41,205 nucleotides of DNA from Pirellulales bacterium (GTDB taxonomy: Bacteria > Planctomycetota > Planctomycetia > Pirellulales > S012-138), in the NCBI GenBank assembly GCA_028066245.1, contig JALCBR010000038.1:1-41205 (forward strand). Direction: 5' to 3'. The stretch's first letter is position 1. Each line of letters begins with the position of its first letter. The notes under the pieces were generated by a model. The model was given only the letters and a program-made list of their open reading frames with translations. It was not told the origin of the DNA and did no database searches. Of the stretch, positions 22,747 to 40,334 are shown in pieces. The position numbers and the translations under genes are program-made.

Positions 22747-23695
22747 CTCGTCTTCCCGTCCCGTTGTAAGCCTCGTTCCCCGCCATCAAGTTTGGCGACA
22801 TATCTGACAGCAAGGCGGAAGCACAGCCCCGGCGAGCACCAATGTCAACGCATGCTCAAAACGGCAACAACCTCTGTCGAGAAATATCTACGTCAGCGCT
22901 GCCGCGAGGTCAAAAAACGCTCAGGAACAGTGCGCGTCGTGCCGAATGATCCTGTTATTCCGTTCGGCTTCCTCGTGGGGCTTTCGCATGCGGTAATTGC
23001 AACTGTGAGTCTTTGCGCGGGCGGAGCAGGTCCGTTTGATAAGCTACGATTGGTAAACGGCCGCACGCGAGCGCCGTCATCATTCCACTCCGCTCGAAAC
23101 AGGGCAGTCAGTATGTTCTGGACCTATGTCGCTTTGACCTGCACGGTTGTCGTCTTCGCCATCTTCGGCAATGCCAAGCAGGCGCGCGTCAACCAAAGCA
23201 CCAAGTGAGAGTTAGCAGCTTCCCCTTTGAAGGCTCGCCTTGGGCCAATGGACTCAGGCCACCTTCCCTGGTCGCGCGTCGCCTGTCCCACATCTACTTT
23301 CGCTGCGCCAGGTGATGAAGAGAGCCTGAACGAAGAATGAGACTGCATGGAGCCGAATCATCGCCGCGCGAAATTCCTGTCTCAACTATTTTGGCTTGCC
23401 TATCCCCCTGAAAGACGGGCCAAACAGCACCCCTCTCATGTGGGGATTTGGTCGAAGTTCTAACAGCTGCGCCAACAGGGGTTCCACCAGGCGCGCCACG
23501 AGGGGGTTCCACAGTGTTTCCAGGAGGGGCGCCAACCGTTCGTTGGACCGTAGCGCATCAACTGATCGAGTCAAGTTAGGGCCGAGCGATCGCATTTTGT
23601 TGCAACGTCGCGTTTCTCAGATTGACGAGGAGCAATCTCGCCCTGATGCAGCGGTGCAACACGATCGGCTCAAGTGAGGAGAGGCTGTCAATGAA
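22747..23695. other. Long intergenic region
   Basis: A stretch of 949 bp before the response regulator with no convincing gene. It contains a possible 31-codon membrane peptide (23113-23208), a G/C-rich patch with short repeated ggggttccac units (about 23474-23520), and a sequence at 23219-23241 close to the palindromic patch at 9647-9668. A leftward 69-codon frame (23386-23595) translates the repeat patch as amphipathic Leu/Pro text (LAPLLETLW, LVEPLLAQLLEL). It has no support as a gene. Confidence 0.4.
23113..23208 (+). CDS. Possible 31-aa membrane peptide
   Basis: MFWTYVALTCTVVVFAIFGN, followed by a polar basic tail (KQARVNQSTK), would make a single-pass peptide. An AGGG lies about 10 nt before the ATG. 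It sits in an otherwise empty region. Evidence is only composition and the weak RBS. It could equally be chance. Confidence 0.25.
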   Translation: MFWTYVALTCTVVVFAIFGNAKQARVNQSTK

Positions 23696-24145
23696 TCACT
23701 TGGCCACCAGACGGACTTCATCAGAAGGGCGTTCGTCAGGGTCAATGATCGCAAAGACTTCGTCAACGATGTCAACTGTGGAGACAATGCCGATCACATG
23801 CCCTCGGTCGTCAATCACAGGAACGCGGTGTATGCGGTTACCGCGCAACGTTGCGGCTACCTCCAAGAGTGAATCGTTTGGCTCGACGGAAATCACGGGC
23901 GAAGACATGTGTTGAAAAACCTGATGCTTCTCTAAAGTTTCAGCATCAAGCATCAAAAAATCTTTGGCACTGAGAATGCCGACGCACGTGCCATCAAACG
24001 TGACAACCGGCAAACCCGTAATGCGGTTATCCAGCAAGACTTGCGCGGCCGTGCTCATTTGCTGGTTCGCATACACCGTAACGACTTCTCGAGTCATTAC
24101 GTCTTTCGCCTTGCGCAAACTGAAATGGGAATTCGCTGACGGCAT
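23696..24145 (-). CDS. CBS-domain pair protein
   Basis: A 149-aa protein made of two CBS domains (~12-65 and ~80-140). Visible motifs are AKDVMTREVVTVYANQQMST, GLPVVTFDGTCVGILSAKDF, and VPVIDDRGHVIGIVSTVDIV. CBS pairs bind adenosyl ligands (AMP, ATP, SAM) and regulate partner proteins. ATG 24145 follows the histidine kinase stop by a single base (TGA-C-ATG) with GAGG upstream, so it is cotranslated with that kinase. The longer 24190 start would overlap the kinase by 44 bp and is less likely. Confidence 0.88.
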   Translation of the reverse strand: MPSANSHFSLRKAKDVMTREVVTVYANQQMSTAAQVLLDNRITGLPVVTFDGTCVGILSAKDFLMLDAETLEKHQVFQHMSSPVISVEPNDSLLEVAATLRGNRIHRVPVIDDRGHVIGIVSTVDIVDEVFAIIDPDERPSDEVRLVAK

Positions 24146-24146
24146 G

Positions 24147-25838
24147 TCAAACCTCGGCAACTTCTTTCTGCAACGCGTATTGAGCAACAAGCGAGATCAA
24201 GCCGTTGCGATTGATCGGCTTGGTCGCGTAATCATCACAACCGGCGGCCACACATTTCTTGCGGTCATCGCTCATTGCGTGCGCAGTGAGCGCAATAATT
24301 GGACCTGAATATCCAGCCGCACGGAGTTGCGACGTGGCCGAATATCCGTCAAGCACTGGCATCTGCATGTCCATGAGGATCACATCAAACGGATTCCCTT
24401 CACGGAGGGCAGTCATGGCAAGGTCAACGGCTATTTCCCCGTTGTCTGCAACCGCAACTTCGCTGCCGGCTTTCTTAAGAACAAACGAGATCAACCTTTG
24501 ATTATCGGGACCGTCTTCCGCCAAGAGCACGCGGCACGCTAAGTCCTCACGTACTTCACATGCTGACTCGGCTGCGGGAGCCGGTGTTGAACTGTCCGGG
24601 GTTTCTTCCACGAATTGCACACCGGCCAAAGGCCCCGTATCGATTTCAAGGGAGAACATGCTGCCTTCGCCAACTTTGCTGGTCACACGAATGTTGCCAC
24701 CAAGCATCTCGGCCAATCGATTACTAATGGTTAGGCCTAAACCCGTTCCCCCAAACCTCCGCGTTGTCGATGCATCCGCTTGTCCAAATGGAGCAAACAG
24801 TCTCGGGATATGCTGCTCACCGATTCCGATGCCGGTGTCGATGACATCGAATCGCAACTTCCCTGCGGCACCATGTTCGTGAAGCTGCACAACCAACCGC
24901 ACCTGGCCTGTTTCGGTAAATTTAACCGCGTTGCCGACGAGGTTGATCAGAATCTGACGCAACCGCGTGGGATCTGACAAGATGCATTTTGGGATGGGGC
25001 CTCTGAAGTCCAGCTCAAGCGCGATACCTTTCGCGGTAGCTCGAGTTTGCATGAGCTGCCACACATCACGAGCGACATCACTCGGGGAACATGCGATGTA
25101 CTCCACATCGAGCTTTCCCGATTCAATTTTGGAAAGGTCCAAGATGTCGTTGATGATGCCGAGCAGGTACTCGCCGTTTTGCCGAACAATTTGCAGCACT
25201 TGAATGCTTTCTTCTTCCTTGGCATTGCTCAAGGCAATCTCTGAGAAGCCCAAGATAGCAGTCATCGGCGTGCGGATTTCATGACTCATGTTTGCCAAGA
25301 ATTCGCTCTTTGCTCGATTGGCATCTTCTGAGACCTGGACCGCTTGTTCAGCCGTTCTGTTTGCAATCACCAACGCTTCCATTTCACGTTTAGCGGCGAG
25401 CTGATCCAAACGTGCCTGAACCTCAGCCTGCGCATGACGTTTTTGCAAGAGACACACAACGGCCGTCACCCAAATTGCCATGAACGCCAGAAGCCTGTTG
25501 GTGATCACCTTCCAAAGTTCTCCTCCTGTCGGCGAGGCGACGAACCCGATTATCGTCAACACTGTTGCGATGATTGCTGTCGCATATGTCGTTTTCTGAC
25601 GTGTTGAGCGCAGGCTGTAGAGCACAAGGATGATGTAGGGAACACCAGCGGCAACTCCCAAAGGCACCGAGAGATCAAAACAAAGAACAGAGATGGCGAT
25701 CGTCAACCAAACGATATAAAACTTGCGCGTCAGCGGTTGCGCTTCATGTTCAGTGCTGAACCCTTCCGCTTTTGCGGCGGCTGCGCTCGCAGAGCCAGAC
25801 TCTACCCGGGGAGCTGGAAGTGTGTTCATCGTTGGCAT
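24147..25838 (-). CDS. Membrane hybrid histidine kinase with C-terminal receiver
   Basis: A 563-aa sensor kinase. About five hydrophobic helices span ~40-150 (FYIVWLTIAISVLCFDLSVP, then VPYIILVLYSL, a pair near 70-90, and the helix near 115-130), with no large periplasmic loop. A coiled coil leads into HisKA with the phospho-His in FLANMSHEIRTPMTAILGFS (~185-205). HATPase_c follows with NLVGNAVKFT (N box), DTGIGIG, and GGTGLGLTIS. A receiver is at ~440-555 (VLLAEDGPDNQ, LMDMQMPVLDG with the phospho-Asp, ALTAHA, TKPI). Signal and target are unknown. The start could also be Met4 (25829). It is coupled to the CBS gene. Confidence 0.92.
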   Translation of the reverse strand: MPTMNTLPAPRVESGSASAAAAKAEGFSTEHEAQPLTRKFYIVWLTIAISVLCFDLSVPLGVAAGVPYIILVLYSLRSTRQKTTYATAIIATVLTIIGFVASPTGGELWKVITNRLLAFMAIWVTAVVCLLQKRHAQAEVQARLDQLAAKREMEALVIANRTAEQAVQVSEDANRAKSEFLANMSHEIRTPMTAILGFSEIALSNAKEEESIQVLQIVRQNGEYLLGIINDILDLSKIESGKLDVEYIACSPSDVARDVWQLMQTRATAKGIALELDFRGPIPKCILSDPTRLRQILINLVGNAVKFTETGQVRLVVQLHEHGAAGKLRFDVIDTGIGIGEQHIPRLFAPFGQADASTTRRFGGTGLGLTISNRLAEMLGGNIRVTSKVGEGSMFSLEIDTGPLAGVQFVEETPDSSTPAPAAESACEVREDLACRVLLAEDGPDNQRLISFVLKKAGSEVAVADNGEIAVDLAMTALREGNPFDVILMDMQMPVLDGYSATSQLRAAGYSGPIIALTAHAMSDDRKKCVAAGCDDYATKPINRNGLISLVAQYALQKEVAEV

Positions 25839-26260: not shown

Positions 26261-28732
26261 CTAAACCGCAGGGGTGATCGCTTGGGGAATGTCGACTCGG
26301 TCAAATTCTGATTCGATGAGAGCCCGCTGCACAGAACGGCAAACATCGAGCAGTTCCATGGCAACCCGTAGCGTTGCAGAAGCATCTTGATCTTCTCTCA
26401 AGGCACTGCGTAATTCGCCAGCCTTCTGTCCGATGTTGGCCTCTCCGTAGTGTTTGGCTGTCATTTCGATGCGTTGTGCCATGGCGTCCAACGAATCGAA
26501 ATCTTGTTCGTCAAGCATCACGCACAGCCGTTCGATTTGCACGCCAATTGCGAGTGCCGTTTCCTTGGAAACCTCGCCCGGCTCAATTTCGGGCTCCGCT
26601 CGCAGACGATTGTTGAGCGCGGTTACAAATCTCTCCACCAGTTCAGGATCGAATTGCACGCCGGCACAGCGTCGGAGTTCCGAGACGGCCTCGCTATGTG
26701 AGCAGCCTTGGCGGAAAACGCGGTCATGGGTCATGGCGTCGTACGCATCAGCAATCGCCAGGATTCGCGCTGCCAGCGGCAACCGGTTCCCCACGGGCGA
26801 GGCAGGGCGGAATGTTGGATCACCGTAATGCGCGGGGTAGTGCTCTAGGATCTCCGTCAATTGTGGCGAATTGAATGAAGCGCGGACAATCTCCTTCCCA
26901 ATCACGTCATTCCGACGCATAACCAGCCATTCTTCCTCCGTGAGCGGGCCTGGCTTGAGCAAGATGTGGTCAGGGACGCCCACCTTGCCGATATCGTGGA
27001 GGACTGCGGCACACTCCAGGAGGTAACACTCTTTCATTGACAAGAGTCCTTCCGCGCAACTCACGCAGAGGTCTGCCACTCTCCGGCTGTGTTGAGCCGT
27101 CATTTGATCGCGATAGGCGAGTGCAGAGACCAACGCCGCCACAGCGTGATACGGCACCAACGTTTGTGATTCGTCGGCATCGCTCCCTTTTGTCCGGCTG
27201 ATGGATGATTCATCTACCACAAGATCAGTCGGCAACTGATCCCAGCGGACGACGCGATTTCGTCCATCGCGTTTTGCCACGTAGAGACCTTTATCAGCCT
27301 GATCCAAAGCATCCTGTGGTTGGCAGCACGTGCCCGATCGCTCCGAAACTCCAATACTGGTGGTCACACGAAAACCAGTAAATTGAAGGCTCTCAATGGC
27401 GGTTCGCATACGCTCGGCAACAAGCGACGCCTCGGCGATGGACGTCGATGGAAGCAAAACCGCAAACTCCTCGCCCCCGTATCGGCACACGACGTTATCT
27501 CCGCCGGCTTCGCTCAACAATGTTGCACCAACGCTTTTTAGGACCTGATCGCCGGTACTGTGTCCGTAGTTGTCATTGATCGCCTTGAAAAAATCGATGT
27601 CGACCATCATCACGCTAAGGGGCTGACGATCACGCGCAGACTCATTCCAATCTTTTTCGAACCGTTCGAAGAATGATCGTCGATTCAGGCATCCGGTCAA
27701 AGGATCACGAGAAGCAAGCAGTTCAAGTTCTCGATTCTGCCGCTTGATTGCCACGCTTGAGGCGCGCAGGCATTCAACCATGCCGCCGAGCTCTTTCTTC
27801 TTCTCTTCTAAGAGCGTGACGTCTTCAAAACTGGCAAGAATCCCCCGCGCCTGTCCCGTGTCGTCAAAGATGGGCGATGCGCTCACAGAGAATGTTCGGT
27901 CTGATTGATCACCTGCGGTCAGCCCTAGCAACCGACCAGTGACCGTGCTTCCGTCCTCGAGAGCTTCCGCCCAAGGCGACCGATCGAAATGCGTTTCATT
28001 GCGATTGATGAAGTCAAGTTCGGTCACAGAATTGCCCAGCAGCCGGTTCTTGCTCCGCCCGGTTGTGCGCTCAAATGCTCGATTTGCCAGCACAACCCGG
28101 CAATTGCCGTCGAGGACTAGCAGGCCTTCAGCAAGTGTATCGAGCGCCTCGCGCACGCGCGCTGGAACGGCGCTGGATGGGTCAAGATGCTTCAGGACGA
28201 TGCGGAGATAGAAATAGAAAACTCCAAGGCTGGAAAGCACCACGATTAACGCGAAGACCACATTGGGGCTTGTAAGCGCTCCCAGCCACCCTGGCGCAAG
28301 AGGTTTGAAGACAACTTCAAAACGTCCCCATGGTTTTTCGTTCGCATAGAACTGAACCCAAACGTTGGAATCAGTCGCCGCGGCGGCATCGCTTTGATTC
28401 CAATAGGCGGCATGCTCACCATGCTCGATGATCAGCTCACCATCATCATTGCGCACGGCGAGTGAGTGAACGTCATCGGCGTCTCTTGACAGAGTTTCCA
28501 TGTACTGTCGCATGGTTTCGATGTCGGCGCGTTCGGCCATCATCGAAAACGCGATGGCTGCATTCTCGCAGAACTGTTTTCGCCGCCGCAGAATCTCAGC
28601 ACGGGTGTCAGGAGTCAGCCCCGTCAGTGACAAGACCGTCAAAATTGTTGCCAACAGTCCGACCAAGCCCAAAGTGATCCTGGCCAGGACGGGGAGATTC
28701 CAGCGAAAGAGTTTTTTCAGTGAGATTGCCAT
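26261..28732 (-). CDS. Membrane PAS-GGDEF-HD(GYP-like) signalling protein
   Basis: An 823-aa protein from ATG 28732. A TTG at 28750 overlaps the giant gene's stop by four bases and would add 6 residues. Two membrane helices (~12-40 and ~158-180) flank a ~115-residue periplasmic sensor region. A PAS domain is at ~195-310. A GGDEF domain is at ~345-500 with DPLTGCLNRRSFF and an intact active site RYGGEEFAV. An HD domain is at ~530-720 with HSRRVADLC and HDIGKVGVPDHILLKPG. The usual HHExxDGxGYP segment is replaced by LEHYPAHYGDPTFRP, while ADAYDAMTHDRVFR is normal. The protein probably makes c-di-GMP; phosphodiesterase activity is doubtful. It sits directly after the giant surface protein, suggesting control of it. 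Confidence 0.88.
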   Translation of the reverse strand: MAISLKKLFRWNLPVLARITLGLVGLLATILTVLSLTGLTPDTRAEILRRRKQFCENAAIAFSMMAERADIETMRQYMETLSRDADDVHSLAVRNDDGELIIEHGEHAAYWNQSDAAAATDSNVWVQFYANEKPWGRFEVVFKPLAPGWLGALTSPNVVFALIVVLSSLGVFYFYLRIVLKHLDPSSAVPARVREALDTLAEGLLVLDGNCRVVLANRAFERTTGRSKNRLLGNSVTELDFINRNETHFDRSPWAEALEDGSTVTGRLLGLTAGDQSDRTFSVSASPIFDDTGQARGILASFEDVTLLEEKKKELGGMVECLRASSVAIKRQNRELELLASRDPLTGCLNRRSFFERFEKDWNESARDRQPLSVMMVDIDFFKAINDNYGHSTGDQVLKSVGATLLSEAGGDNVVCRYGGEEFAVLLPSTSIAEASLVAERMRTAIESLQFTGFRVTTSIGVSERSGTCCQPQDALDQADKGLYVAKRDGRNRVVRWDQLPTDLVVDESSISRTKGSDADESQTLVPYHAVAALVSALAYRDQMTAQHSRRVADLCVSCAEGLLSMKECYLLECAAVLHDIGKVGVPDHILLKPGPLTEEEWLVMRRNDVIGKEIVRASFNSPQLTEILEHYPAHYGDPTFRPASPVGNRLPLAARILAIADAYDAMTHDRVFRQGCSHSEAVSELRRCAGVQFDPELVERFVTALNNRLRAEPEIEPGEVSKETALAIGVQIERLCVMLDEQDFDSLDAMAQRIEMTAKHYGEANIGQKAGELRSALREDQDASATLRVAMELLDVCRSVQRALIESEFDRVDIPQAITPAV

Positions 28733-28746
28733 GGCGTAGCTTCGCG

Positions 28747-31700
28747 TCAACGAACCAGGTCGCTCAAGCTTTCGTCATGATTTGGCACTCCGCCAGCCTG
28801 ATCGAAGGATGTCAGGATCGGCAGGGGATCAAATGATGTCCAAGCTGGCAGCGAAGCGACCAAACTGGCAACAAGCGTGGTGCCTCGAACCAACCAGATG
28901 ACATATCCGACAGAAACGGCAGAAGCTGCAACAGTGGTTGCGCCAAGAATAATGTCCTGGCTGCTCAGCTCCCCCTCGCCTTCAACCTGAGCGCCCCACT
29001 CCCCAGCGTTTGAGTACAACGTCAAGGGCGCGTTGGACACGGCGTCAATAACGAAGGGATCAACGCGAGGTACTTCCGTGGCAACGTCCGCGAATTCCGT
29101 TGGCTGTGACTCGCTCCTCAGGAATCTCGTCCGCGCCTGACTGTCTTCGCTCAAGCCTTGGGTGTGAAGATCGATCGCCTGCACGCTTGGAGTCGTATCG
29201 GCTTCCGTAGAGGCATCCGACGACTCAATGGGGCTTCGATCTTCTGAAGCGGAGACCTCGCCAGCAAACAAAGGCGGTTCGGTAGCAATGTTTTCAAAGA
29301 ACTGATCATCTTCCTCTGACGGTTCTACCGTCTGCCCGTCTGAGGAATTGTCTTCATTTGCGTCAGTGCCGCCTCCACCCGGATCCGCCAAGGCTTGGAC
29401 TTCGAGCGTCACGGTAACCGAACGCGAGGTTAAAGTGCCGTCCGTCGCGACGTACGTGAAGCTATCAATTCCGGTGAAGGTCACGTCAGGGGTGTAAGTA
29501 AATGAACCGTCCGCGTTCAGCGTTAGCACACCATGCGAAACATCGCTCAACAGGACGGCGCTCAGTGGATTGCCATCGATGTCGGAGTCATTCGCCAACA
29601 CTCCCGGTTGAACAACGGTGATGGCGCCCACAGCAAACGACGTAAACGACTCTCCCTGCGCGATCGGACTCTCATTGATGTCATTCACGGAAATCGTGAA
29701 TGATTGATCGTATGTCAACCCACCGGAGTCCGTTGTTCGGATTGTGACAATGTGGTTGGCGGCCGTTTCGTGGTCGAGCGCTGAGCCCGCCGCGACCGTG
29801 AGATCACCTGTGACGCTGTTAATAGCGAAACGACCGGCAGCGTCATCCACCAAAGAGTAGGTAAAGACATCGCCAACGTCAGGGTCGACGGTGGACGCTG
29901 TGCCAACGAGCATGCCGTTGGCAACGTTCTCGTCGACAGTGGATCCGGCTAGGTTGATTGCCGTCGGCGTATCATTAATCGAAGCAATGTCAACGTTGGT
30001 TGTTCCCAGCGCAATATCGCCACCCCCGCCAGCACCAAAGTTGCCGTTGTCAGTCACTGAAACTTGGATCGTATCTGCGTTGTTTCCGTTGGTCCCCGGA
30101 GTTCCATGCAGGTACTGAACATTGGAAGGCACGTCGAGGTAAGCATTCAGGTTGGCGAGTGTGCCAGTCAAGGTCAACGCTCCTGTTCCGAGACCAACAA
30201 CGTTAACCCCGCCACCAGAAATCGCGTACAGATTGCCGCCCGTCGAGGTGGCCAGAGTCAGGGTGAGGTTGCCTGCGCCAGCGTCGGAGTCGAACAGATC
30301 AATCGCCGAAAGATCGACGTCGCTCAAGATGTCTTCCGTGACCGAGATGTCTAGCGGGAGACTCCCGGCATTCACAGGGTCATCATTGACGGCCGTCACG
30401 GTGATGGTAAACGTCTGGCCGCTGACGGCGTTGCCTTGGCCGTCGTCCACGTCGAAGGTGAAGTTCCCGCTGGTCGTGTTTGAGCCATCGTGAACGTAGA
30501 CGACCCGATTGTTGTTGAGGTCATCTTGGGTGAAGGACGTAATCGCCACGCCGGGGTTGGTGGTCAGTTCAAGCTGGCCATTGGCCGGGCCGCCGGTGAC
30601 CGTATAGGTCACGGCCGTGGCTGGTTGTTCGGTGTCGGTGAACTCCAACTCGGCCTGGCTGAGGGTATCCGTGCCTCCCTCCGCCACCGTCGAACCGGTG
30701 TTGGCCACCTGGGTCGGTGCGTCGTCATCGACGGCCGTCACGGTGATCGCGAACGTTTGCCCGCTGACGGCGTTCCCTTGGCCGTCATCCACGTCGAAGG
30801 TGAAGTTCCCGTTGCTCGTGTTCGAACCATCGTGGACGTAGACCACCCGGTTGTTGTTGAGGTCATCCTGCGTGAACGACGTGATCGCCACGCCGGGGTT
30901 GGTGGTCAGTTCAAGCTGGCCGTTGGCCGGACCGCCGGTGACCGTATAGGTGACGGCCGTGGCCGGCTGCTCAGTGTCGGTGAACTCCAACTCCGCCTGG
31001 CTGAGAGTATCCGTACCTCCCTCCGCCACCGTCGAACCGGTGTTGGCCACCTGCGTCGGCGCGTCGTCATCAACGGCCGTCACGGTGATGGTGAACGTCT
31101 GGCCGCTGACGGCGTTCCCTTGACCATCGTCCACATCAAAGGTGAAGTTCCCGTTGCTCGTGTTCGAGCCGTCGTGAACATAGACCACCCGGTTGTTGTT
31201 GAGGTCATCCTGCGTGAACGACGTGATCGCCACGCCGGGGTTGGTGGTCAGTTCAAGCTGGCCGTTGGCCGGACCGCCGGTGACCGTATAGGTGACGGCC
31301 GTGGCCGGCTGCTCAGTGTCGGTGAACTCCAACTCCGCCTGGCTGAGAGTATCCGTACCTCCCTCCGCCACCGTCGAACCGGTGTTGGCCACCTGCGTCG
31401 GCGCGTCGTCATCAACGGCCGTCACGGTGATGTTTGCCGACGCATTTTCTGCGGAATAAGCCGTCGTCCCGCCGCCTGATCCGGGGTTGGAATAACTTGG
31501 CGATCCATTTGTGGATGCTGTGCCAGTTGTTTGATCCCAGGCTTTGAATGAGAACGTCGCCGTTTCACCATCATTGCCATCCGGAACATAGCGAACTTGG
31601 GATGTTGATGTAATCAAGAGAGCGTTTGATGACGAAACAGCGCCGAAGGCCGCCCAACTGATTCCATCTGTCGAATATTGCCAGGTGCCATTTCCGGTCA

Positions 31701-34700
31701 TCCCGGTGATTGCCAAGCCACTAAGGGCGGCCGCATCAACATCTGACCAAGAAACAGACGTGAGGATTGCGCTGGCGAGAGTTCCCGAGGAGGTTGTATC
31801 TTCGTCCGTTCCGGCCAGACCAACCGTGGCACCATTGGTGATCGTAGGAGCATCATTCACGCTCGACACATTGATGCTGGCGATCTCCGTAGCGGAGCTG
31901 AATGCTGTTGTGCCCCCGTTTGTGCTCGCGTCAACCTTGGTTCCAAAAGCGCCGCTCGATTGATCCCATGCGCGGAATGTGATGTCCGCGGTCGTGCCGT
32001 TCTGTCCATCAGGCACAAATCGCAAGATATCCGTATCGCGTAGCAAGAGAGCCGATGAATCCGACACGGCGCCGACATTGGTCCAGCTTCCTCCACCGTT
32101 GGTCGAATACTGCCAAGTGCCGTTGCCGTTGTTGGCAGCGGTGATGGCGATTCCCTCGATTGCTCCAGCATCAATATCCGTGATTCGATTACCGCCTGCT
32201 GAGGAAATCACTGACGCGACCGTTTGCCCTCCGTTAGCAGTCTGATCTTCCGTGATCGATGTGAAGCTCATTGTCCCAGAATTGTCCAGCACGGGCGCGT
32301 CATTAACGGCGTCAACCGTAAGCAAAACGTTCCCTGTTACCTCGGTTTGATCCGTCGCAAGAGCAAGGATTTCATCGGCCGAAAGTGCTCGTGTGTAGAT
32401 CCTTGCGTCGTCGATTCTGCCGAAGAAGTTGAAGTTGGCGCCCGTTCCATGTCTGCCGATGTACGTATCGGTGCCCTGTGAATAGGAAATCGAGTCGGTT
32501 GTATTCGTGGCGCTAACTGCCACTCCGTCAACATACAGAGTTGCCGTGTTTCCCACGTCATCAAAGCTGTACGCGACATGGTGCCATCCCGCTCCAATAA
32601 GTGACGTGGCGTAGGTCGTTTCGATCCATGTGCTTCCGTTGTAAAAGAACCCCGTCAGAGTTCCGCCGGGTTCAACACGAATGGCCACGTTATCTCCCGT
32701 CGAGATGACATCCGAGCCGGACGTGTCTGTATTTGTGACATTCACCCAAGCCGCCAGCGTTACGTTGGCTGGTGCTGAGAAGGTTCCGGTGATCTGCACA
32801 CTCTCCCCGAGTGAATTTAATTCCAGCACTTCCCCTCGGTCGGCATCTGTCGTCGTGGCTGCCCCTCCAAGCAATGTCCCGTCCTGTGTTGTTCCGGCGC
32901 TGTCATCGGCGGCGTCTGCCCCATCAAACGTGTAGTGCCCTACCAACTCGGCTCCAAGGGAAGTCGTCACCGTCAACGTGTCGTTGCCGGTGTAGTTGCC
33001 AGTTGGCGAGTATTGCAGGCCCTCAAGAGCGGCGTTAATGTCCGACTCGGTGCCGTGAATTGTCATCGTCGCGCTATTGTTGGCGCCCTCAACAAACAAC
33101 AAACCGGTTATCTGGGACAGGGTCAATGTGCCGTTGCTGACACTCAAAGTCACCTGTAGCCGATCGTCGGTGACAGGACTAAAGTCGACCGCAATTGCGT
33201 TCCCGTTACCGGTTGAGAAGACCAACGTTTGGTCTTCATCCACTGATTGATTGAGCGGAATGGATTGCGTGACTTCGATGCGGTCCAATGCCGTTGCATT
33301 CATCGCGAACTCGGACGTGTCTGAATACGTCGAGTAAGTCGCGTCCGATGCAGTTGCCGTCGCTGTGACGAGTTCATTAACCGCCACGGCACTTGTAAAC
33401 TGAGTGGAGAACGACGCGTTACCAGAAGCGTCTGTCGCGACGTTGATGTAGCCCAGGTAGCGTTCGGCTTCACCGTGCCCGGTTGAGTCGCCAGTCGCAT
33501 TGGCAAAAAATTCGATGCGGTAGTAGCTGTTGGCCTCTGAGTGGATTGTTCCATCAATCCAAACATTTGTGCCGTTGGTTGTTACCGTTCCGAGAACGGG
33601 GAAGTTCTGCAGGTTGTTTCCGCCGGTGTCAATGTCATCGGCATCGTTACTCGTTACGCCGTCTCCGCCGTCATTGGAAGTCGCCCCCAGGTCGATTCCG
33701 CGCGCGGCATTGCCGCTGACGACGTTTCGTAAGAGCGAAATTCCCGAAGCCGCGTTGGTGACCACAATGCCATCCCCCGCATTACCGGTGATTTCATTGT
33801 CTTGAATCACCGAGTTGCTTCCCGACCGAACTCCGATTCCTGCCAGCTGCGTACCACCACCGACTCCACTGTTTCTGATGATATTTGAGTCGATGGTGAC
33901 GTTACTAATTGCTCCTGAGGCAAAATCGATTCCGTACCCAGCGTTTCCGGTGATCACATTGCCGGAAATGGTGAGGTTGGTGACGGTGCCGACGAGAGAA
34001 ATCCCATCTCCTGAAGTCCAGTCGATGCCATTATCGCGAAGGATGCTATTGGTGACCGTGCCGCCTGTTGAGGTATTGAACCAAACCCCTGATCCTCCGG
34101 ACCGAGTCACCGTGACTTGGTCGATGAAGGCGTTGTTTCCGGAAACATGGATCCCATGGTAGGCGTTTGTTTCCGTGCCATTGACGCCAATCGCGATGAT
34201 AGAGACATCATCCGCCTGCACGTCTAAACCGTGGCCATGAATCAATTCCTGGTAATCAATAATGACTTCAGGGCCGGTTGTGACTTCGTTAACGGATGGG
34301 TTGTCATCTCCCCCAAATAGCTCTTGTGACGTCCCGTCAATAATCAGCGCATCAGTGATGGCGGGCAGCGCTGAAGCAACGTTGATTGTGTGAGGGCCTG
34401 TCCCAGCAATGTTGAATTCGATTGTATCCAGGCCGGCCAGGTTGTTGGCATCAATGATCGCCTGTCGAAGCGAACCTGCGCCGGAATCGTTGGTGTTCGT
34501 GACCGTGAATGTGTTCAGCAAGCCATTCCATTCGGACTCAAAGCCTTCACTGAACGCTGAAGCGGTCTGCACGGATCCCAGTGCAAACTCAAACTCCCAG
34601 TTGCCGCCAAGCGCGGCAGCTCCCGTGTCATCTGTACTCGCGGCAACGTCTGCTCCCGTCAGATCTTGAAACGTGGACAAGATGAGCTGGCCGTCTTCTC

Positions 34701-35361
34701 CAGCGGCAAGCTGACATCCATAGAACAAAAGGTCCGCGTCATCAGCAAGAGCGCTGTTCCACGAGGCAATCGACTCTCGATAGGAGTCTAGGTTGTCTGT
34801 CGTGAGCCACAGATTGCCAAGCTTGACCGCTCGGTCTGTCCCGTGCGACACAATGTGAACTGCCGAAACATCGGTATGTCCACCAATTGTCTGTGAGATC
34901 TGTTCGAGCCCGTCTCGCGAACTATCGAGCACAATGACCTCAAAAGTCCGTTCCGTGCCTGGCTGCAAGGCAAGGTCGGCGAGAAACGCGTCAACATCTC
35001 CCACTGATTCGTCAACGAACACTAGTTCAAGCTGCGCCGCCGAGTCCTCCGTCGAGGAACCCTCTTGTTGCGTGTTTCCTACATCGTCAGAATTCAATTC
35101 AGCATCGATTGCCTGATCCTCACCGATAAGTAACACGACATCAGATTGAACCTCATCAGCTGCCATATCATCGGACGCAGAATCCACGCCCACCGCCTCG
35201 GCAACGGCAAGCGGAGTCGCACTCATCAGAATGCGATTCTCTAGGCGCTCAATGTCGATAGGTGCGGCTGTCGGGCCTTCAGGTTGCCAAGCACGCGCGG
35301 CTCCAGCGCAAGCCTCGTCAAAGAGTAATTTGGTCCGAAACAGGAGAGCGCGAAATGTCAT
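28747..35361 (-). CDS. Giant LEPR-XLL/DUF4347 surface protein with cadherin-like repeats
   Basis: A 2204-aa protein. Residues 40-50 read LENRILMSATP, matching the planctomycete LEPR-XLL motif (LEPRxLLSA) after a basic/hydrophobic leader. A DUF4347 domain is at ~110-265 (VVLDSSRDGLEQI, VHIVSHGT, LLFYGCQLAAGEDG, FQDLTGADVAAS). Parallel beta-helix repeats are at ~275-600 (NTNDSGAGSLRQAI, NNAFIDQVTV). A LamG-like domain is at ~820-1010. Two related ~100-aa repeats (ITDIDAGAIEGIAI / WSDVDAAALSGLAI) precede three almost identical 114-aa cadherin/CSPG-like repeats at ~1317-1657. Cadherin-like and VCBS-like domains lie at ~1780-1990, then an acidic linker. The C-terminus has a membrane segment (VGYVIWLVRGTTLVASLVAS, ~2145-2165). 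Likely a cell-surface adhesin, exported by the cluster upstream. Confidence 0.9.
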   Translation of the reverse strand: MTFRALLFRTKLLFDEACAGAARAWQPEGPTAAPIDIERLENRILMSATPLAVAEAVGVDSASDDMAADEVQSDVVLLIGEDQAIDAELNSDDVGNTQQEGSSTEDSAAQLELVFVDESVGDVDAFLADLALQPGTERTFEVIVLDSSRDGLEQISQTIGGHTDVSAVHIVSHGTDRAVKLGNLWLTTDNLDSYRESIASWNSALADDADLLFYGCQLAAGEDGQLILSTFQDLTGADVAASTDDTGAAALGGNWEFEFALGSVQTASAFSEGFESEWNGLLNTFTVTNTNDSGAGSLRQAIIDANNLAGLDTIEFNIAGTGPHTINVASALPAITDALIIDGTSQELFGGDDNPSVNEVTTGPEVIIDYQELIHGHGLDVQADDVSIIAIGVNGTETNAYHGIHVSGNNAFIDQVTVTRSGGSGVWFNTSTGGTVTNSILRDNGIDWTSGDGISLVGTVTNLTISGNVITGNAGYGIDFASGAISNVTIDSNIIRNSGVGGGTQLAGIGVRSGSNSVIQDNEITGNAGDGIVVTNAASGISLLRNVVSGNAARGIDLGATSNDGGDGVTSNDADDIDTGGNNLQNFPVLGTVTTNGTNVWIDGTIHSEANSYYRIEFFANATGDSTGHGEAERYLGYINVATDASGNASFSTQFTSAVAVNELVTATATASDATYSTYSDTSEFAMNATALDRIEVTQSIPLNQSVDEDQTLVFSTGNGNAIAVDFSPVTDDRLQVTLSVSNGTLTLSQITGLLFVEGANNSATMTIHGTESDINAALEGLQYSPTGNYTGNDTLTVTTSLGAELVGHYTFDGADAADDSAGTTQDGTLLGGAATTTDADRGEVLELNSLGESVQITGTFSAPANVTLAAWVNVTNTDTSGSDVISTGDNVAIRVEPGGTLTGFFYNGSTWIETTYATSLIGAGWHHVAYSFDDVGNTATLYVDGVAVSATNTTDSISYSQGTDTYIGRHGTGANFNFFGRIDDARIYTRALSADEILALATDQTEVTGNVLLTVDAVNDAPVLDNSGTMSFTSITEDQTANGGQTVASVISSAGGNRITDIDAGAIEGIAITAANNGNGTWQYSTNGGGSWTNVGAVSDSSALLLRDTDILRFVPDGQNGTTADITFRAWDQSSGAFGTKVDASTNGGTTAFSSATEIASINVSSVNDAPTITNGATVGLAGTDEDTTSSGTLASAILTSVSWSDVDAAALSGLAITGMTGNGTWQYSTDGISWAAFGAVSSSNALLITSTSQVRYVPDGNDGETATFSFKAWDQTTGTASTNGSPSYSNPGSGGGTTAYSAENASANITVTAVDDDAPTQVANTGSTVAEGGTDTLSQAELEFTDTEQPATAVTYTVTGGPANGQLELTTNPGVAITSFTQDDLNNNRVVYVHDGSNTSNGNFTFDVDDGQGNAVSGQTFTITVTAVDDDAPTQVANTGSTVAEGGTDTLSQAELEFTDTEQPATAVTYTVTGGPANGQLELTTNPGVAITSFTQDDLNNNRVVYVHDGSNTSNGNFTFDVDDGQGNAVSGQTFAITVTAVDDDAPTQVANTGSTVAEGGTDTLSQAELEFTDTEQPATAVTYTVTGGPANGQLELTTNPGVAITSFTQDDLNNNRVVYVHDGSNTTSGNFTFDVDDGQGNAVSGQTFTITVTAVNDDPVNAGSLPLDISVTEDILSDVDLSAIDLFDSDAGAGNLTLTLATSTGGNLYAISGGGVNVVGLGTGALTLTGTLANLNAYLDVPSNVQYLHGTPGTNGNNADTIQVSVTDNGNFGAGGGGDIALGTTNVDIASINDTPTAINLAGSTVDENVANGMLVGTASTVDPDVGDVFTYSLVDDAAGRFAINSVTGDLTVAAGSALDHETAANHIVTIRTTDSGGLTYDQSFTISVNDINESPIAQGESFTSFAVGAITVVQPGVLANDSDIDGNPLSAVLLSDVSHGVLTLNADGSFTYTPDVTFTGIDSFTYVATDGTLTSRSVTVTLEVQALADPGGGGTDANEDNSSDGQTVEPSEEDDQFFENIATEPPLFAGEVSASEDRSPIESSDASTEADTTPSVQAIDLHTQGLSEDSQARTRFLRSESQPTEFADVATEVPRVDPFVIDAVSNAPLTLYSNAGEWGAQVEGEGELSSQDIILGATTVAASAVSVGYVIWLVRGTTLVASLVASLPAWTSFDPLPILTSFDQAGGVPNHDESLSDLVR
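30389..31414 (-). repeat. Three tandem 342-bp coding repeats
   Basis: Units begin at 30389, 30731 and 31073 and a new copy of the start sequence acggccgtcacggtgat recurs at 31415, so the period is exactly 342 bp (114 codons). The three copies are almost identical at DNA level. They encode CSPG/cadherin-like domains (TVAEGGTDTLSQAELEFTD, QDDLNNNRVVYVHDGSNT, FDVDDGQGNAVSGQTF). Copy-number change by recombination is likely. Such repeats can also collapse in assembly. Confidence 0.95.
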
Positions 35362-35659: not shown

Positions 35660-37837
35660 TCATCGTGAATCCGGCAGGAAGAGTCGCTTGATCCATCGAG
35701 AAGATTTGATCCAGGCGACTTCTCCGATGCTCTCACGGCGTCTGCCGAGCAGCGCATAACCTTGCTCGCCGGCGCCCAGCTGACGCGCGGCATTCTCGGG
35801 GAGGGAAATCACCGCCCTAAACCGCGGCTCGGTCAGGAGTAATTGTGATTCTCGAGTCGTCGTGTCGTGCGAGTCGGAGTCTTCTCTGACGATAAGCGGG
35901 CCTCCCACCGTGGAGCTCAATGCCGGGTGGGGCAAATACGTTGACGCCCGTGGGTCAATTTGCTCAAGAACCCCCTGGTTCAGATTTTGGCCATCGATTC
36001 GATAGGTGATTGATTCTCCGACGAGTGGAACCATGGCGTCGATTTCTTCCTGCCCAACGGAAACCGTCAACTCTTTGATTCGATCGTCACCGATGGCGAG
36101 AACTTCGTCTCCTTCATTGAGGTAAGTACCGATTGCATATCTCAAATTTCGTCCGAGAATTCGTCCATCTCTGGGGGCAACAATTTTCAAGCTTTGTACG
36201 TGCTGCCGCAGTTCAAAGATACGCTCGTCTAGCGCCTGAATATTTTGCATCGCAACCTGCGCCGCTGCCGCATCTTGGTGATCAAGTGCGTGGCGGTGCC
36301 GGAGGTGCTCTTGTTCGAGCAGAAGTTCTTCGCCGCGAAGTTCCGTCGTCAACTCGTCATTCCTGAGTTCAACGAGGAGCTGTCCTGCCTTAACCTGTTG
36401 ACCATTGTGGACAAGAATGTCCTCCACAAAACCAGAAGCTCCACTACGTAGAGTGGAAAGATCCGCATAGTCAACAATCGCTGGTGCCGACATCGCACCA
36501 GGCCACGACAATTGAGTCAGGGTCAAAACACTCGCTGACGACAGCAGTGCCCCTACGAAGACAGCTCGAAAGAACCGAGCTGGCGCCGTCTGGGCACGAC
36601 GAAGCATCTCAATCGCCAAACCCCAGACCGGGCGGCCAAACCAGAGCAGGAGGGCAACCAGGGAGAGAACAATTCCTGCGCCATTCAGCAGCACGGAAGC
36701 AGCCGTGGCGAGCGAAAGACAAATGAGAACTCGCCACAACGCCGCCGCAATGCCATACACGCCGACAAACCCATTGCGAACTCCGGTCATGCGTGGGGCT
36801 TGCGTCGTTGTCCCAAAGAACAACTTCGACGAGACTTGCCGCACGAATTGGCTACCTTGGTTGGCGAGATTCGGGATTCCGACAAGGTCGCTGAGGATGT
36901 AATACCCGTCGAATTTCATCAGCGGATTGGCGTTGAAGACTAACGTCGACAAGCTTGCCATAAGAATGATGCTATGCAAGAGGTGCTTTGCATACATTGT
37001 CTCGGCGTTTACCCAGATGATCGCGGCTATAGCAGCAATGATGAGCTCGACATACATTCCCGCCACGGCTACATGAATTCGACGCCATTTTGAAGTGAAT
37101 CGCCAACTTGAAGTGACGTCAACGTAGGCGAGCGGCGCGAAAAGAACAAAAATCGCACCAGAATCTCGCACTTCTCCTCCGTATGATCGACACGCGATGC
37201 CGTGCGCAAACTCGTGCGCAATTTTCAATCCCAACCAGGCTAAGCCCAACCACAGCCAGTTGTCAGGCGCGAAAACTGCCTGGGAGCTTGTGACGAAACG
37301 ATCCCAGTTGGCACCAAGACAGGTTGCTCCTAATAAGATGACACCGATACCGAACACGGTAGCCCACCACTGCAACAGCCACGACAGGTAGGGAACCGCG
37401 AGGACGAACAACCTATCGGGGTTACCGAAAGGGATTTTGATCCAGAACGGGTTGAGCTTCCCGCTACTGTTGGCACCGTGTTTGGTTTCCGCTGACGAGG
37501 GCTCCGGAGCCGCCAGCTTGTCTTGATCCAAATCCCGTGCCAGCCCATTTTCTAACAGCCACCGGCAGAGTTGCACGCCCGCTTGCTTGCTCAGCGCATC
37601 AGAGCGCCTTTGTCGGGCCATCACGGTCAGCGCTTGAGCGATGGTGAGCTTTCCGTTGAGCAGTGAGATAAAGACATACTCGGCGTAGCCAATCCGGTAG
37701 AACGTGTTCTGCGATTTGGATTCGAGGTGATAGTAAACCTCGTTCAAATGCACTTGCGGGACAAATACCAAGTCGTCGACAAGTTCGAGTCTTGTCTGGG
37801 AAGCGTCACGCGTGGATGGATCAATGGCAAGGGCCAT
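35660..37837 (-). CDS. M50-family (site-2-protease-like) metallopeptidase fused to HlyD-type module
   Basis: A 725-aa membrane protein from ATG 37837, two bases after the stop of the previous gene; a TTG at 37855 is less likely. Residues ~20-105 resemble a PqqD-like/winged-helix region (YRIGYAEYVFISLLNGK). Membrane helices flank the zinc motif H208-E-F-A-H212 and the third ligand region NANPLMKFDG (D310), as in site-2 proteases. More helices follow (~370-455). Residues ~465-700 form a lipoyl/HlyD-like part: LRSGASGFVEDILVHNGQQV, a coiled coil at ~510-575, then IVAPRDGRILG and a barrel. The fold suggests both intramembrane proteolysis and an adaptor role across the envelope. The downstream neighbour is the giant surface protein. 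Confidence 0.88.
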   Translation of the reverse strand: MALAIDPSTRDASQTRLELVDDLVFVPQVHLNEVYYHLESKSQNTFYRIGYAEYVFISLLNGKLTIAQALTVMARQRRSDALSKQAGVQLCRWLLENGLARDLDQDKLAAPEPSSAETKHGANSSGKLNPFWIKIPFGNPDRLFVLAVPYLSWLLQWWATVFGIGVILLGATCLGANWDRFVTSSQAVFAPDNWLWLGLAWLGLKIAHEFAHGIACRSYGGEVRDSGAIFVLFAPLAYVDVTSSWRFTSKWRRIHVAVAGMYVELIIAAIAAIIWVNAETMYAKHLLHSIILMASLSTLVFNANPLMKFDGYYILSDLVGIPNLANQGSQFVRQVSSKLFFGTTTQAPRMTGVRNGFVGVYGIAAALWRVLICLSLATAASVLLNGAGIVLSLVALLLWFGRPVWGLAIEMLRRAQTAPARFFRAVFVGALLSSASVLTLTQLSWPGAMSAPAIVDYADLSTLRSGASGFVEDILVHNGQQVKAGQLLVELRNDELTTELRGEELLLEQEHLRHRHALDHQDAAAAQVAMQNIQALDERIFELRQHVQSLKIVAPRDGRILGRNLRYAIGTYLNEGDEVLAIGDDRIKELTVSVGQEEIDAMVPLVGESITYRIDGQNLNQGVLEQIDPRASTYLPHPALSSTVGGPLIVREDSDSHDTTTRESQLLLTEPRFRAVISLPENAARQLGAGEQGYALLGRRRESIGEVAWIKSSRWIKRLFLPDSR

Positions 37838-37839
37838 GG

Positions 37840-39309
37840 CTACCACCCCAACCAACGAATTGCCGCGGCGAATGGCCGACGCAATAAGATCCAGCCGAGG
37901 GAATGAGATTCGCCTTCAATGCTCGCGGAGCCTTTCATTCCCGGACGAAGGAGGTTGTTGCTGTTATCCAGCCGCACTTCGGCGATGAAAACATTCTCAT
38001 CGTCACGCAATTCTGCTCGAGGGTGAACGCAGGAAACCACACTTGTAAACGGCCGGAGAGGGTATGCGTCAAACCGTATTGTCACCTGCATTCCTGATCG
38101 CACATGGGCAAAGTCGTCCTCAGCAATCTCGAGTTCGACAACCATCAACTCGAGCGGAGCAACCTCATAGAGTGTTTGCCCTGTTTGCAGTGTGGTACCC
38201 TCGGAGTTTTTCCAATCTCCACTAACGATGACTCCGTCGATTGGACTGCGAACTTCCAACACCTCGGTGCGATATTCCAAGAGTTCGGTTCGTGATTGCA
38301 ATCGCTCGACTTCCAGCCTGGCAAGTTCCGCTTGCCCAGAATCGTGCGTCGCCAGAAATCCGGCGCGTTCCTTAGTGGCTCGATGCAAATCAGCACGGAT
38401 ACCGGCGAGTTCCCAACGAATTTCTCGGCCATCCATGAGCGCGAGAAGTTGCCCAGCCTTAACTTCAACTCCTGGTTCAACGTGAGTCACTTCAAGCGCC
38501 CCGTCAAATGGCGCCGCTACATACCGTCGCATGACAGGTTCGACAGTGCATCCGCAATCAGGGTGATATGTCAACGGAATGGCCGCCAAGAAAATGCTGA
38601 CAACCAGTCCGAGCAAGACCGCAACGCTTTTCCGTTTACGGGCGATGCGAAGCGCATTACCCACAGACCGGCGTAACGTGCTTTGCTCCGCCCTCTCTAT
38701 CAGTCCAAGCGCTGATGCGACGGGCTCCTCCGCCGCCTCTAAGAATCGGCATACGTTGGTGTTGGCAGGAAGATTCTCACGAAAACCCAACATGAGCGCG
38801 CCTTGCAGGCGTCCCGCAGCGTCGCGTAGCGGGGTGCTCACAATCAACTTTAAGTTGTGTTGGTGGCAATAGTCCTGATGAACCACCAAGCCAGCGGCAT
38901 TCCCAGCCTCGCCCACCAACCAACGTGCAAGAGCTCCCCGAGCGAGCGACTCTTGCATAACAGCCTGAGCTGCTAGGGAGTTGGACGTACCGGCGCCACT
39001 CGAGTTCATTGTGGACGAGGCGATGACTCGGCAGGCAACAGATCCGGATCTACACACCGCAACAAAGGCCTGTGCTGCAGAATAGTATCGCTGGAGCTGT
39101 TGTGCCAGAACTTCGCATGCATTCCGATGATTTGAAGCCGATTCGATGCGGGCGACAAGATCGGCAATTGCCGCCATTTCTGTAAGTTGTTCCGCTCGAT
39201 CAACGCTCTCTCTTTCAGCTTTGCTCATTCCCATTGCCGAATCTTGCAGAGATCGGCTCGGAGGCTCTGCAAGTTCGGGCGTCAGCGGATTTGTTGTAGC
39301 AAGCGTCAC
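37840..39309 (-). CDS. GAF-transmembrane-HlyD adaptor protein
   Basis: A 489-aa protein with an unusual order of domains. Residues ~40-205 form a GAF-like domain (ARIESASNHRNACEVLAQQL, LKLIVSTPLRDAAGRLQGAL). One membrane helix is at ~225-245 (SVAVLLGLVVSIFLAAIPL). A HlyD/membrane-fusion part follows: a lipoyl half-motif (VAAPFDGALEVTHVEPGVEV), a coiled coil at ~300-345, the second half-motif (EVRSPIDGVIVSGD), and a beta-barrel. The GAF would be cytoplasmic and could sense a small ligand such as a cyclic nucleotide while the HlyD part reaches the periplasm. The start is GTG at 39309; Met26 (39234) is an alternative. It lies 56 bp after the HlyD gene and its stop is two bases before the M50 start. 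Confidence 0.85.
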   Translation of the reverse strand: MTLATTNPLTPELAEPPSRSLQDSAMGMSKAERESVDRAEQLTEMAAIADLVARIESASNHRNACEVLAQQLQRYYSAAQAFVAVCRSGSVACRVIASSTMNSSGAGTSNSLAAQAVMQESLARGALARWLVGEAGNAAGLVVHQDYCHQHNLKLIVSTPLRDAAGRLQGALMLGFRENLPANTNVCRFLEAAEEPVASALGLIERAEQSTLRRSVGNALRIARKRKSVAVLLGLVVSIFLAAIPLTYHPDCGCTVEPVMRRYVAAPFDGALEVTHVEPGVEVKAGQLLALMDGREIRWELAGIRADLHRATKERAGFLATHDSGQAELARLEVERLQSRTELLEYRTEVLEVRSPIDGVIVSGDWKNSEGTTLQTGQTLYEVAPLELMVVELEIAEDDFAHVRSGMQVTIRFDAYPLRPFTSVVSCVHPRAELRDDENVFIAEVRLDNSNNLLRPGMKGSASIEGESHSLGWILLRRPFAAAIRWLGW

Positions 39310-39365: not shown

Positions 39366-40196
39366 TCAGTCGAGAATCAGGCGACAGCTTGCGCCGCAGG
39401 GAAGGTCTTTATCGTGATTAGAGAGCCGCACACGAACCCGCTTGGTTCCGCTCTGTGGATCAACAATGGGTGAGATGTACTCAATCTCGCCTGAAACGGT
39501 GGTTTGCGATAGCGTGAACTGCACCGTGGCAGACTGACGAAGCTCAAGGCGATCACAGACCGGAGCCGGAACCGAAAACACGACGAGCAGAGAGTCAAGC
39601 TGCACGACTGTCATAATCTCAGGATCGCTCAACGGGACAAACTCGCCTTGATCGCGAAAGACTCGCGTTACGACACCATCAATAGGGGACACGATTTGCC
39701 GCTGCCGAAGTTGAGCGAGGATCTTCTCATACTCCAACTGGCGGACCTCTTGTTCTTCAATGACGGCCAGTAGGTTGCCCTCAGCAACGCGCAACTGCAA
39801 CTCAGCCCTTTCAAGCTCCTGTTGTGTTGCATGGTTGCGGGCGCGAAGTTCTCTTAGTTTCTCTAATGTCCGCGATCGCAATTCACATTCGGCCTCTGCG
39901 GATTCACGCCGTGCCCGTGAATTCATTGCGGACCGAGCGATATCCAGCGCTGCCTGCAAAACAGAGTCATCGAGCAGAGCGACAACTTGTCCCTTTTTGA
40001 CGGTATCTCCCTCTGCAACTTGGATCCCTTTCAGAAGCCCCATCTCCGCAGCTGCAATTTCGATCTCAAGATATGGCTCGGTGATGCCTTCAATTTCAAT
40101 GTCTTGAGATGTGCGCGCACTACCCACCCCGGTTGTGGCGAGCAACATCACAACTCCCATTGAAAGAGCTCGAATTTGAGCGCGGCTTCTTGACAT
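39366..40196 (-). CDS. HlyD/RND-type periplasmic adaptor
   Basis: A 276-aa protein from ATG 40196, with AGGA spaced about 8 nt upstream; a GTG at 40217 would add 7 residues. A signal peptide covers ~1-28 (LSMGVVMLLATTGVGSA). A lipoyl domain is split by a coiled-coil hairpin: EPYLEIEIAAAEMGLLKGIQ and EGDTVKKGQVVALLDD, then helices at ~78-155 (RSAMNSRARRESAEAECELR), then RQIVSPIDGVVTRVF. A beta-barrel (TVQFTLSQTTVSGEIEYISP) ends the chain. It is short for the family and lacks a clear membrane-proximal domain. It acts as a periplasmic bridge for a transporter, here probably with the neighbouring SecA-like and M50 proteins. It lies 138 bp after the SecA-like gene. Confidence 0.88.
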   Translation of the reverse strand: MSRSRAQIRALSMGVVMLLATTGVGSARTSQDIEIEGITEPYLEIEIAAAEMGLLKGIQVAEGDTVKKGQVVALLDDSVLQAALDIARSAMNSRARRESAEAECELRSRTLEKLRELRARNHATQQELERAELQLRVAEGNLLAVIEEQEVRQLEYEKILAQLRQRQIVSPIDGVVTRVFRDQGEFVPLSDPEIMTVVQLDSLLVVFSVPAPVCDRLELRQSATVQFTLSQTTVSGEIEYISPIVDPQSGTKRVRVRLSNHDKDLPCGASCRLILD

Positions 40197-40334
40197 AACT
40201 CGTCCTGTGACAGTCACCTACTGTCTTCAACGAGACCTTGAACAACTGCCCCTGTTACTTGCTCCACTCGCTCGGGTTTGCGAGTCAAAGGCATCCCTTG
40301 GTGAGATCAATATGAAAGACTAGCTCACGCCAAG

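Follow-up and report, generated by a model that had tools for sequence, protein, structure and literature searches.

What does an intramembrane protease do when it is joined to an envelope adaptor and encoded beside a giant protein? The question is raised by the gene at positions 35660-37837 of a 41,205-nucleotide stretch of DNA (the window) from a Pirellulales bacterium of the Planctomycetota (GenBank assembly GCA_028066245.1, contig JALCBR010000038.1), which is an entire contig (C57) of a 4.94-Mb genome; the labels C##, L### and G### denote contigs, loci and genomes of this analysis. The original prediction described an M50 protease followed on the same chain by a HlyD-like part, and suggested that the C-terminal membrane segment of the adjacent giant could be its substrate. 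Our analysis adds to this a recognition element (RRE) of the kind found in systems for ribosomally synthesized and post-translationally modified peptides (RiPPs) at the N-terminus of the fusion, two further HlyD genes, a SecA-like ATPase, and a LEPR-XLL motif at the N-terminus of the giant. We think it on balance probable that the locus encodes machinery that processes a giant LEPR-XLL surface protein and exports it under the guidance of its leader.

The product of 35660-37837 is an RRE-M50-HlyD protein whose M50 intramembrane protease retains an intact HExxH motif and distal Asp. The ATG at 37837, the start given by the original prediction, lies in frame two bases past the upstream stop and yields these coordinates; numbered from the TTG, HEFAH occupies residues 214-218 and the Asp of FDGYY residue 316, and subtracting six returns H208, E209, H212 and D310, exactly the residues that had been named. 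Pfam recognizes the peptidase (PF02163, E 5.3e-6, 26.4 bits, slightly under the 27.2 cut-off) by a profile that matches all 32 aligned relatives at E ≤ 1, and recognizes the adaptor by PF16576 (5.4e-9) and PF13437 (3.5e-8). Of 88 aligned homologues, 86 have complete zinc ligands; the site is incomplete in L052 (HEPD) and in the fragment L128. An AlphaFold2 model of the fusion built on 32 sequences (mean predicted local distance difference test score, pLDDT, 85.7) shows N-terminal strands with a winged helix, a membrane part made of helices, the strands of the barrel/lipoyl region, and a hairpin of helices at residues 500-554. It places HExxH and the distal Asp in a membrane helix bundle, as in peptidase family M50, and gives the adaptor the barrel-sandwich and hairpin of HlyD/RND periplasmic adaptors, with Foldseek matches to MexA/MacA in the PDB. 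The predicted joining of proteolysis and envelope bridging therefore holds as a domain architecture, while cleavage and export are activities that we infer. Split frames occur in the adaptor or fusion genes of L052, L055, L068, L078, and L128, and may be sequencing errors or decay.

The domain preceding the protease is best read as a PqqD-type RRE, because its predicted fold, the Pfam matches, and the existence of an RRE-bearing M50 relative combine. The AlphaFold2 model of the excised domain (pLDDT 92.7) has the antiparallel strands and winged helix of known RREs, and its alignment (VIA) to leader-bound TbiB1 reaches Z 9.9 over 87 of 88 residues, followed by TfuB1 (9.8), TigE (9.3), PqqD 5sxy (8.8), TruD (8.6), MccB (8.5), and the PbtF RRE (8.2), scores that some non-RiPP proteins equal. 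The PqqD family PF05402 is found in six of 32 full-length relatives and in six of 18 excised domains. A recent survey of RREs (PMC12710340) gives a recognition pattern W/Y/LxxP/L/I for an RRE group that includes PqqD.

What would such a domain recognize? The fusion is not peculiar to the window genome, as a match is present in 55 of the 57 genomes of its order, its own included; its presence is therefore uninformative in that order, and linkage with LEPR-XLL giants was instead tested in 194 genomes drawn evenly from the gammaproteobacterial order of Neptunomonas qingdaonensis. The curated LEPR-XLL model (LEPR-8K, NF012209) matches in 21 of these genomes, the fusion in 48, and both in 20 (Fisher p 3.5e-13; because the tested genomes are related, Fisher p-values here and below are too small and serve only as a guide). 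The distance to a fusion gene is at most ~6 kb for 16 of the 26 LEPR genes and at most ~16 kb for three more; the remaining seven comprise five on a contig other than that of the fusion, one 58 kb away, and one in a fusion-negative genome. These counts bear out the earlier view of the adjacent giant as the partner of the protease. In Neptunomonas japonica the only curated LEPR match of the genome likewise adjoins the fusion. The wider LEPR profile A3 points the same way: at E ≤ 0.01 it reaches 41 genomes, 37 of them with the fusion, and once its 10 seed genomes are removed the fusion is present in 27 of 31, or in 27 of 28 at E ≤ 0.005, a stricter cut-off that itself favours linkage, as the three genomes it drops (G107, G119, and G199) lack the fusion. 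Of the fusion neighbourhoods with no curated LEPR match, five were inspected (L187-L191); four show variants such as LEPRMLFDGA, and the large open reading frame (ORF) of L190 is cut. Six fusion-bearing genomes have neither LEPR, nor A3, nor the C-terminal motif discussed below. Among them, a large ORF is cut by the contig start in G087 and G097:C41 (G097:C101 has only a shorter ORF), the fusion of G224 lies on a contig of 3.8 kb, the ORF adjoining that of G109 is masked, the M50 match of G094 falls in a 437-aa frame with no HlyD, and in G089 the fusion has no giant next to it. Linkage is strong in the tested gammaproteobacterial order and less complete elsewhere.

The neighbouring genes recur as well. 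A scan of genome contigs found 78 loci, or 79 with the window, of which 40 are well flanked, with at least 6 kb to the left and at least 4 kb to the right of the fusion. HlyD, second HlyD, and fusion occur together in 34 of these 40, an outer membrane efflux protein (OEP) in 19, and a SecA-like gene in 17; across all 79 loci, incomplete ones included, the three adaptor genes occur together in 62. All eight OEP candidates scanned match PF02321. The window's contig, broken off within the SecA-like gene, has no OEP. Carriers of the module belong to Planctomycetota, Gamma- and Alphaproteobacteria, Magnetococcales, Verrucomicrobia, Fibrobacteres, and others, and giants with LEPR-like N-termini stand beside the fusion in the first five of these groups.

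The ATPase has the DEAD, preprotein-binding, and P-loop domains of SecA, and its complete relatives keep the invariant nucleotide-binding residues. It is not an ordinary SecA, as the second nucleotide-binding domain is the last one in those relatives (frames of 607-720 aa), whose ends correspond to about residue 607 of the 783 in SecA 3jv2; our alignment A4 likewise ends after that domain. PF07516, which we take to be the SecA wing and scaffold domain, has no match in either L056 or L072, the complete relatives that were scanned. Near-full-length SecA-like genes are present in 10 of 48 fusion-bearing genomes of the gammaproteobacterial set versus none of 21 fusion-free genomes (21 tested of 146), each 119-262 bases from the fusion.

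Most of the giants share an N-terminal motif. The window's giant appears to bear the motif of the LEPR-XLL (NF012209) giants, scoring 16.7 bits as a whole protein, slightly below the cut-off of 17, and 6.5e-8 with A3, of which it is one of 20 seed rows. LEPR sequences follow the consensus phi-E-x-L-E-P-R-x-phi-phi-[SD]-[AG]; of the positions that the search pattern left free, -3 holds a hydrophobic residue in 21 of 23 sequences (background 0.41) and -2 a Glu in 16 (background 0.052). By hydropathy only, a hydrophobic segment is missing from the N-termini of all 23 LEPR ORFs examined (maxima over 17 residues 0.32-1.28), some of which do not adjoin a fusion, and because of this a Sec signal peptide is unlikely; judged from its sequence, the window's giant likewise appears to lack one. 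Small residues follow the LEPR core, and beyond those there is no evident cleavage site. The lengths involved can be extreme: a LEPR-XLL open frame of 14672 codons (G147:C1:3518859) lies near a fusion and a SecA-like gene, and other LEPR-XLL frames in the same 194 genomes reach 12843 and 10907 codons. The term LEPR-XLL occurs in two papers of the open-licence PMC literature; such a domain has been noted in a giant protein of a Vibrio, and we found no function for the motif in that literature. Variants of the form LE(D/P)RIAP, which may escape the curated LEPR-8K model, occur near the fusion in L115 and L117 (Magnetococcales) and in L091 and L095 (Verrucomicrobia). It is reasonable to suppose, by analogy, that the RRE reads the LEPR leader. 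We consider the N-terminus of the giant a better general candidate substrate than its C-terminus, because most partners share the LEPR leader and the protease carries a leader-binding fold.

Comparison with known systems helps to place the locus. The closest named relative of the fusion is the daptide leader protease MpaP/DapP (NF041824), in which an RRE likewise precedes an M50 site-2 protease on one chain; the model matches all 32 fusion relatives, and at 152.1 bits against a cut-off of 300 the window's protein is not the daptide equivalog. PMC10036551 describes daptide clusters with an RRE N-terminally fused to an intramembrane site-2 protease, MpaP, which removes the leader, and a leader motif ELExMEAP, in which Leu -7 and Met -4 are essential for the companion RRE protein MpaB. 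This motif and the LEPR phi-E-x-L-E-P-R are both short and acidic/hydrophobic, and the hydrophobic -3 and Glu -2 of the LEPR sequences parallel L-E-x-M-E-A-P. Unlike the daptide protease, the fusion adds a C-terminal HlyD part; the cargo proposed here would be thousands of residues long rather than a short peptide, and the loci differ from daptide clusters in having two extra HlyD genes, an OEP, and in some cases a SecA-like ATPase. The epipeptide protease YydH/LiaK/EpeP (NF058609) is likewise an M50 membrane protease, and the fusion matches its model at 29.5 bits (cut-off 225) over residues 212-329 only; EpeP is thought to perform both cleavage and export, according to an excerpt of PMC10885120. 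The ATPase shares its DEAD, preprotein-binding, and P-loop domains with SecA2 of the accessory Sec system, and differs in the missing wing/scaffold of the scanned relatives and in being encoded beside the fusion. Type 1 secretion systems consist of HlyB, HlyD, and TolC and include peptidase-containing ATP-binding cassette (ABC) exporters. Our loci resemble these in their HlyD-type adaptors and OEP channel and would likewise work as a leader-cutting exporter, but their membrane part is the RRE-M50 protein. We do not count them as ordinary type 1 systems because an ABC signature (Walker A plus an SGGQ-like pattern) occurs in only one of the 40 well-flanked loci (L083), a search that a remote ABC gene or an unusual signature would escape. 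Leader-guided tripartite export is a known principle, and the present gene set is widespread and apparently undescribed: in the open-licence PMC literature, searched by title or abstract start, we found no description of it and no paper combining PqqD, M50, and HlyD, and the part of PMC3482391 available to us contains nothing on it.

Under the leader-guided export reading, the RRE of the fusion, presumably cytoplasmic, would bind the N-terminal LEPR leader of the giant, which the M50 site would then cut within or at the membrane. All three HlyD-type adaptors, that of the fusion and its two companions, would build the envelope route together with an OEP/TolC channel, with the SecA-like ATPase that lacks wing and scaffold giving the push in the window's branch. 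In a subgroup that includes the window, a C-terminal membrane motif may retain the giant in the inner membrane or in the machine until release.

Besides the inflated p-values and the uninformative home order, several points weigh against this reading. Leader binding, cut site, export via the adaptors, and the role of the ATPase are all steps that we infer. The RRE assignment is built on a predicted fold and weak sequence matches: the window's own excised domain has no Pfam PqqD match, the non-RiPP proteins 8hkr (Z 10.9) and GdmN (9.5) score as high as the RREs, the best Foldseek E for the domain is only 9e-3, and a PDB sequence profile ranks PqqD 3g2b first among eight matches at an E of only 0.055 (PqqD 5sxy is third, and TfuB1, a lasso-peptide RRE, fifth), none being significant alone. 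An OEP is found in only 19 of the 40 well-flanked loci, and the SecA-like gene is missing from most loci, which leaves those without a known energy source. Outside the Planctomycetota, 23 genomes were reached via the fusion; 12 have a curated LEPR match (E ≤ 0.05) and 11 have none, compared with a match in one of 14 control genomes, and two of the 11 carry LEPR variants beside the fusion (G067 at L095 and G071 at L110). Individual genomes also depart from the pattern. LEPR is present in G244, where no fusion match reaches E 1e-30, and G089 has a fusion with no giant adjoining. In the window's order, G038 has two weak LEPR matches and only the HlyD parts of the fusion profile; G039, 73% complete, has neither LEPR nor fusion.

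The C-terminus of the giant is an alternative substrate, as originally predicted: the M50 site would cut the C-terminal membrane segment, releasing the giant from the membrane, with the HlyD parts as a bridge. The segment itself is as described, as the only stretch of the giant with a 19-residue hydropathy above 1.5 is C-terminal (residues 2137-2172) and carries a conserved motif, GYVxWLLRGG...SLPAWxxFDPLPVL, common to five seed giants; motif-bearing giants occur in three groups, the Planctomycetota and the Gamma- and Alphaproteobacteria. Among the 194 genomes, confident motif matches (E ≤ 1e-8) number 14, none a profile seed, and all 14 genomes carry the fusion (p 6e-10). Only matches at this level were counted, and weak ones (E 0.002-0.007) were treated as noise because five of six sit in fusion-free genomes; including them would change the count to 15 of 20. 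A confident match is, however, missing from 34 of the 48 fusion-bearing genomes, 28 of which have a LEPR giant nonetheless, and the large ORFs adjoining the fusion in L071, L072, L074, L176, and L177 end differently. In the window's order the motif is found in four of 57 genomes; two of these are profile rows (the window and G043), and the other two match more weakly (G032, 8.7e-12; G029, 9e-4). Cutting at the C-terminus would moreover leave the RRE domain and the LEPR motif unexplained, and leader removal is the function of the nearest RRE-M50 protease described (PMC10036551). As the general mode of action, C-terminal release is in our view unlikely. The motif does not qualify as the general M50 substrate, being confined to a minority of fusion-bearing genomes, with some neighbouring large ORFs ending differently; the original proposal is partly supported, as the motif is found solely together with the fusion in the 194 genomes, and C-terminal cutting is possible in one subgroup that includes the window. 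We read the motif as a feature of that subgroup, perhaps an anchor. A second conserved C-terminus (EFNTRVYFTPA-like), with no membrane segment, is present beside the module in L066, L072, and L074, and L071 has a similar one.

Does the protease need to cut at all? LEPR could be a sorting signal read by the RRE, with the M50 fold acting as a membrane scaffold or channel and proteolysis dispensable for export. The RRE and adaptor parts could suffice for docking, and the lack of an evident cleavage site, besides the small residues after the LEPR core, would fit. We nevertheless judge this decidedly unlikely, as the intact HExxH and Asp persist in 86 of 88 homologues at identities to the window's protein down to ~20% (32 of alignment A2), which would be unexpected for a relic. 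The possibility that the module exports or matures a small RiPP-like peptide or an efflux substrate, the giants being mere neighbours, draws on the activity of RRE-M50 proteases in daptide clusters (PMC10036551), on HlyD and OEP being efflux parts, and on the 11 of 23 non-planctomycete fusion genomes with no curated LEPR match. Against the co-occurrence of LEPR giants with the fusion in 20 of 21 genomes and their adjacency in several phyla, it appears very improbable. That the fusion is an ordinary regulatory site-2 protease, joined to an adaptor by chance, is hardly credible: site-2 proteases often cut regulators and signalling genes do lie downstream in the window, but the three adaptor genes stand together in 34 of 40 loci across phyla, and besides the giants there is one loose neighbour cluster (11 of 79 loci), partly identified, that includes those signalling genes.

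The leader-guided export reading can be extended to an undescribed class of secretion system in Planctomycetota, Proteobacteria, and Verrucomicrobiota, in which LEPR-XLL would serve as the export leader and a single RRE-M50-HlyD chain would combine the roles of receptor, leader peptidase, and adaptor; in the branch that has it, the SecA lacking wing and scaffold would provide the drive. This wider claim is tentative, and we hold it to be slightly short of probable. If true, the leader logic of RiPPs would have been repurposed for exporting proteins that reach more than ten thousand residues, with an RRE reading a leader outside natural-product synthesis and an export route that dispenses with an ABC transporter. 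LEPR-XLL giants exceed ten thousand residues in some of the genomes searched, and we found no export route for such giants in the open-licence literature; the linkage supplies a candidate machine, makes LEPR a testable leader, and names the point mutations.

In the window, the genes form a minus-strand operon running from the contig end through the SecA-like ATPase, a HlyD protein, a second HlyD protein, the RRE-M50-HlyD fusion, and the giant to a PAS-GGDEF-HD protein; the features are collected in Table 1.

Table 1. Features of the export locus and its neighbourhood in the window
Feature	Coordinates	Strand	Evidence or remarks
RRE-M50-HlyD fusion, 731 aa from TTG 37855 or 725 aa from ATG 37837	35660..37855	-	ORF, Pfam, NCBIfam NF041824 (152 bits, cut-off 300), AlphaFold2
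N-terminal RRE / PqqD-like domain of the fusion (best reading), residues ~20-116	37508..37798	-	PF05402 in relatives, AlphaFold2, structural alignment
HEFAH zinc motif, H208-H212	37202..37216	-	Conserved with Asp in 86/88 homologues
Third zinc ligand, Asp D310, in NANPLMKFDGYY	36908..36910	-	Kept in 88/88 homologues
HlyD-type adaptor part (barrel/lipoyl and helical hairpin), residues 454-705	35741..36496	-	Pfam, AlphaFold2, Foldseek to MexA/MacA
HlyD protein, N-terminal region weakly GAF-like	37840..39309	-	PF16576, 1.5e-18
Short HlyD / RND-type periplasmic adaptor	39366..40217	-	TIGR01730, 139.5 bits, above the cut-off of 94.9
SecA-like ATPase, 3' part, gene cut by contig end	40335..41204	-	PF21090, 1.4e-49
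Giant of 2204 aa: LEPR-XLL, DUF4347, LamG, cadherin-like repeats, C-terminal membrane motif	28747..35361	-	Pfam, LEPR profiles, hydropathy
LEPR-XLL leader motif IERLENRILMSA of the giant, proposed region of RRE recognition and cleavage	35218..35253	-	Recognition and cleavage putative
C-terminal membrane motif of the giant, GYVIWLVRG...SLPAWTSFDPLPIL	28759..28983	-	A1 profile 3.5e-30 (window among its five rows), hydropathy
PAS-GGDEF-HD protein directly downstream of the giant, possible regulator, outside the core	26261..28750	-	Pfam

Because 299 bases separate the fusion from the giant, the two are likely co-transcribed. The first possible start codon of the PAS-GGDEF-HD ORF overlaps the stop of the giant gene, and this pair is therefore probably co-transcribed as well. 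The PAS-GGDEF-HD gene prompted the idea of control by cyclic di-GMP, which is unsupported: strong homologues (E < 1e-80) are present in only three other loci (L063, L075, and L123). The second HlyD gene had been labelled GAF-HlyD from a look at its sequence, a label that is weak because a Pfam GAF match is found in only one of seven homologues, which is not the window's. Further downstream on the same strand, positions 21352-25838 encode a hybrid histidine kinase and a sigma-54-type response regulator, the latter scoring 411 bits against the PEP-CTERM-box regulator model, whose cut-off is 502.6.

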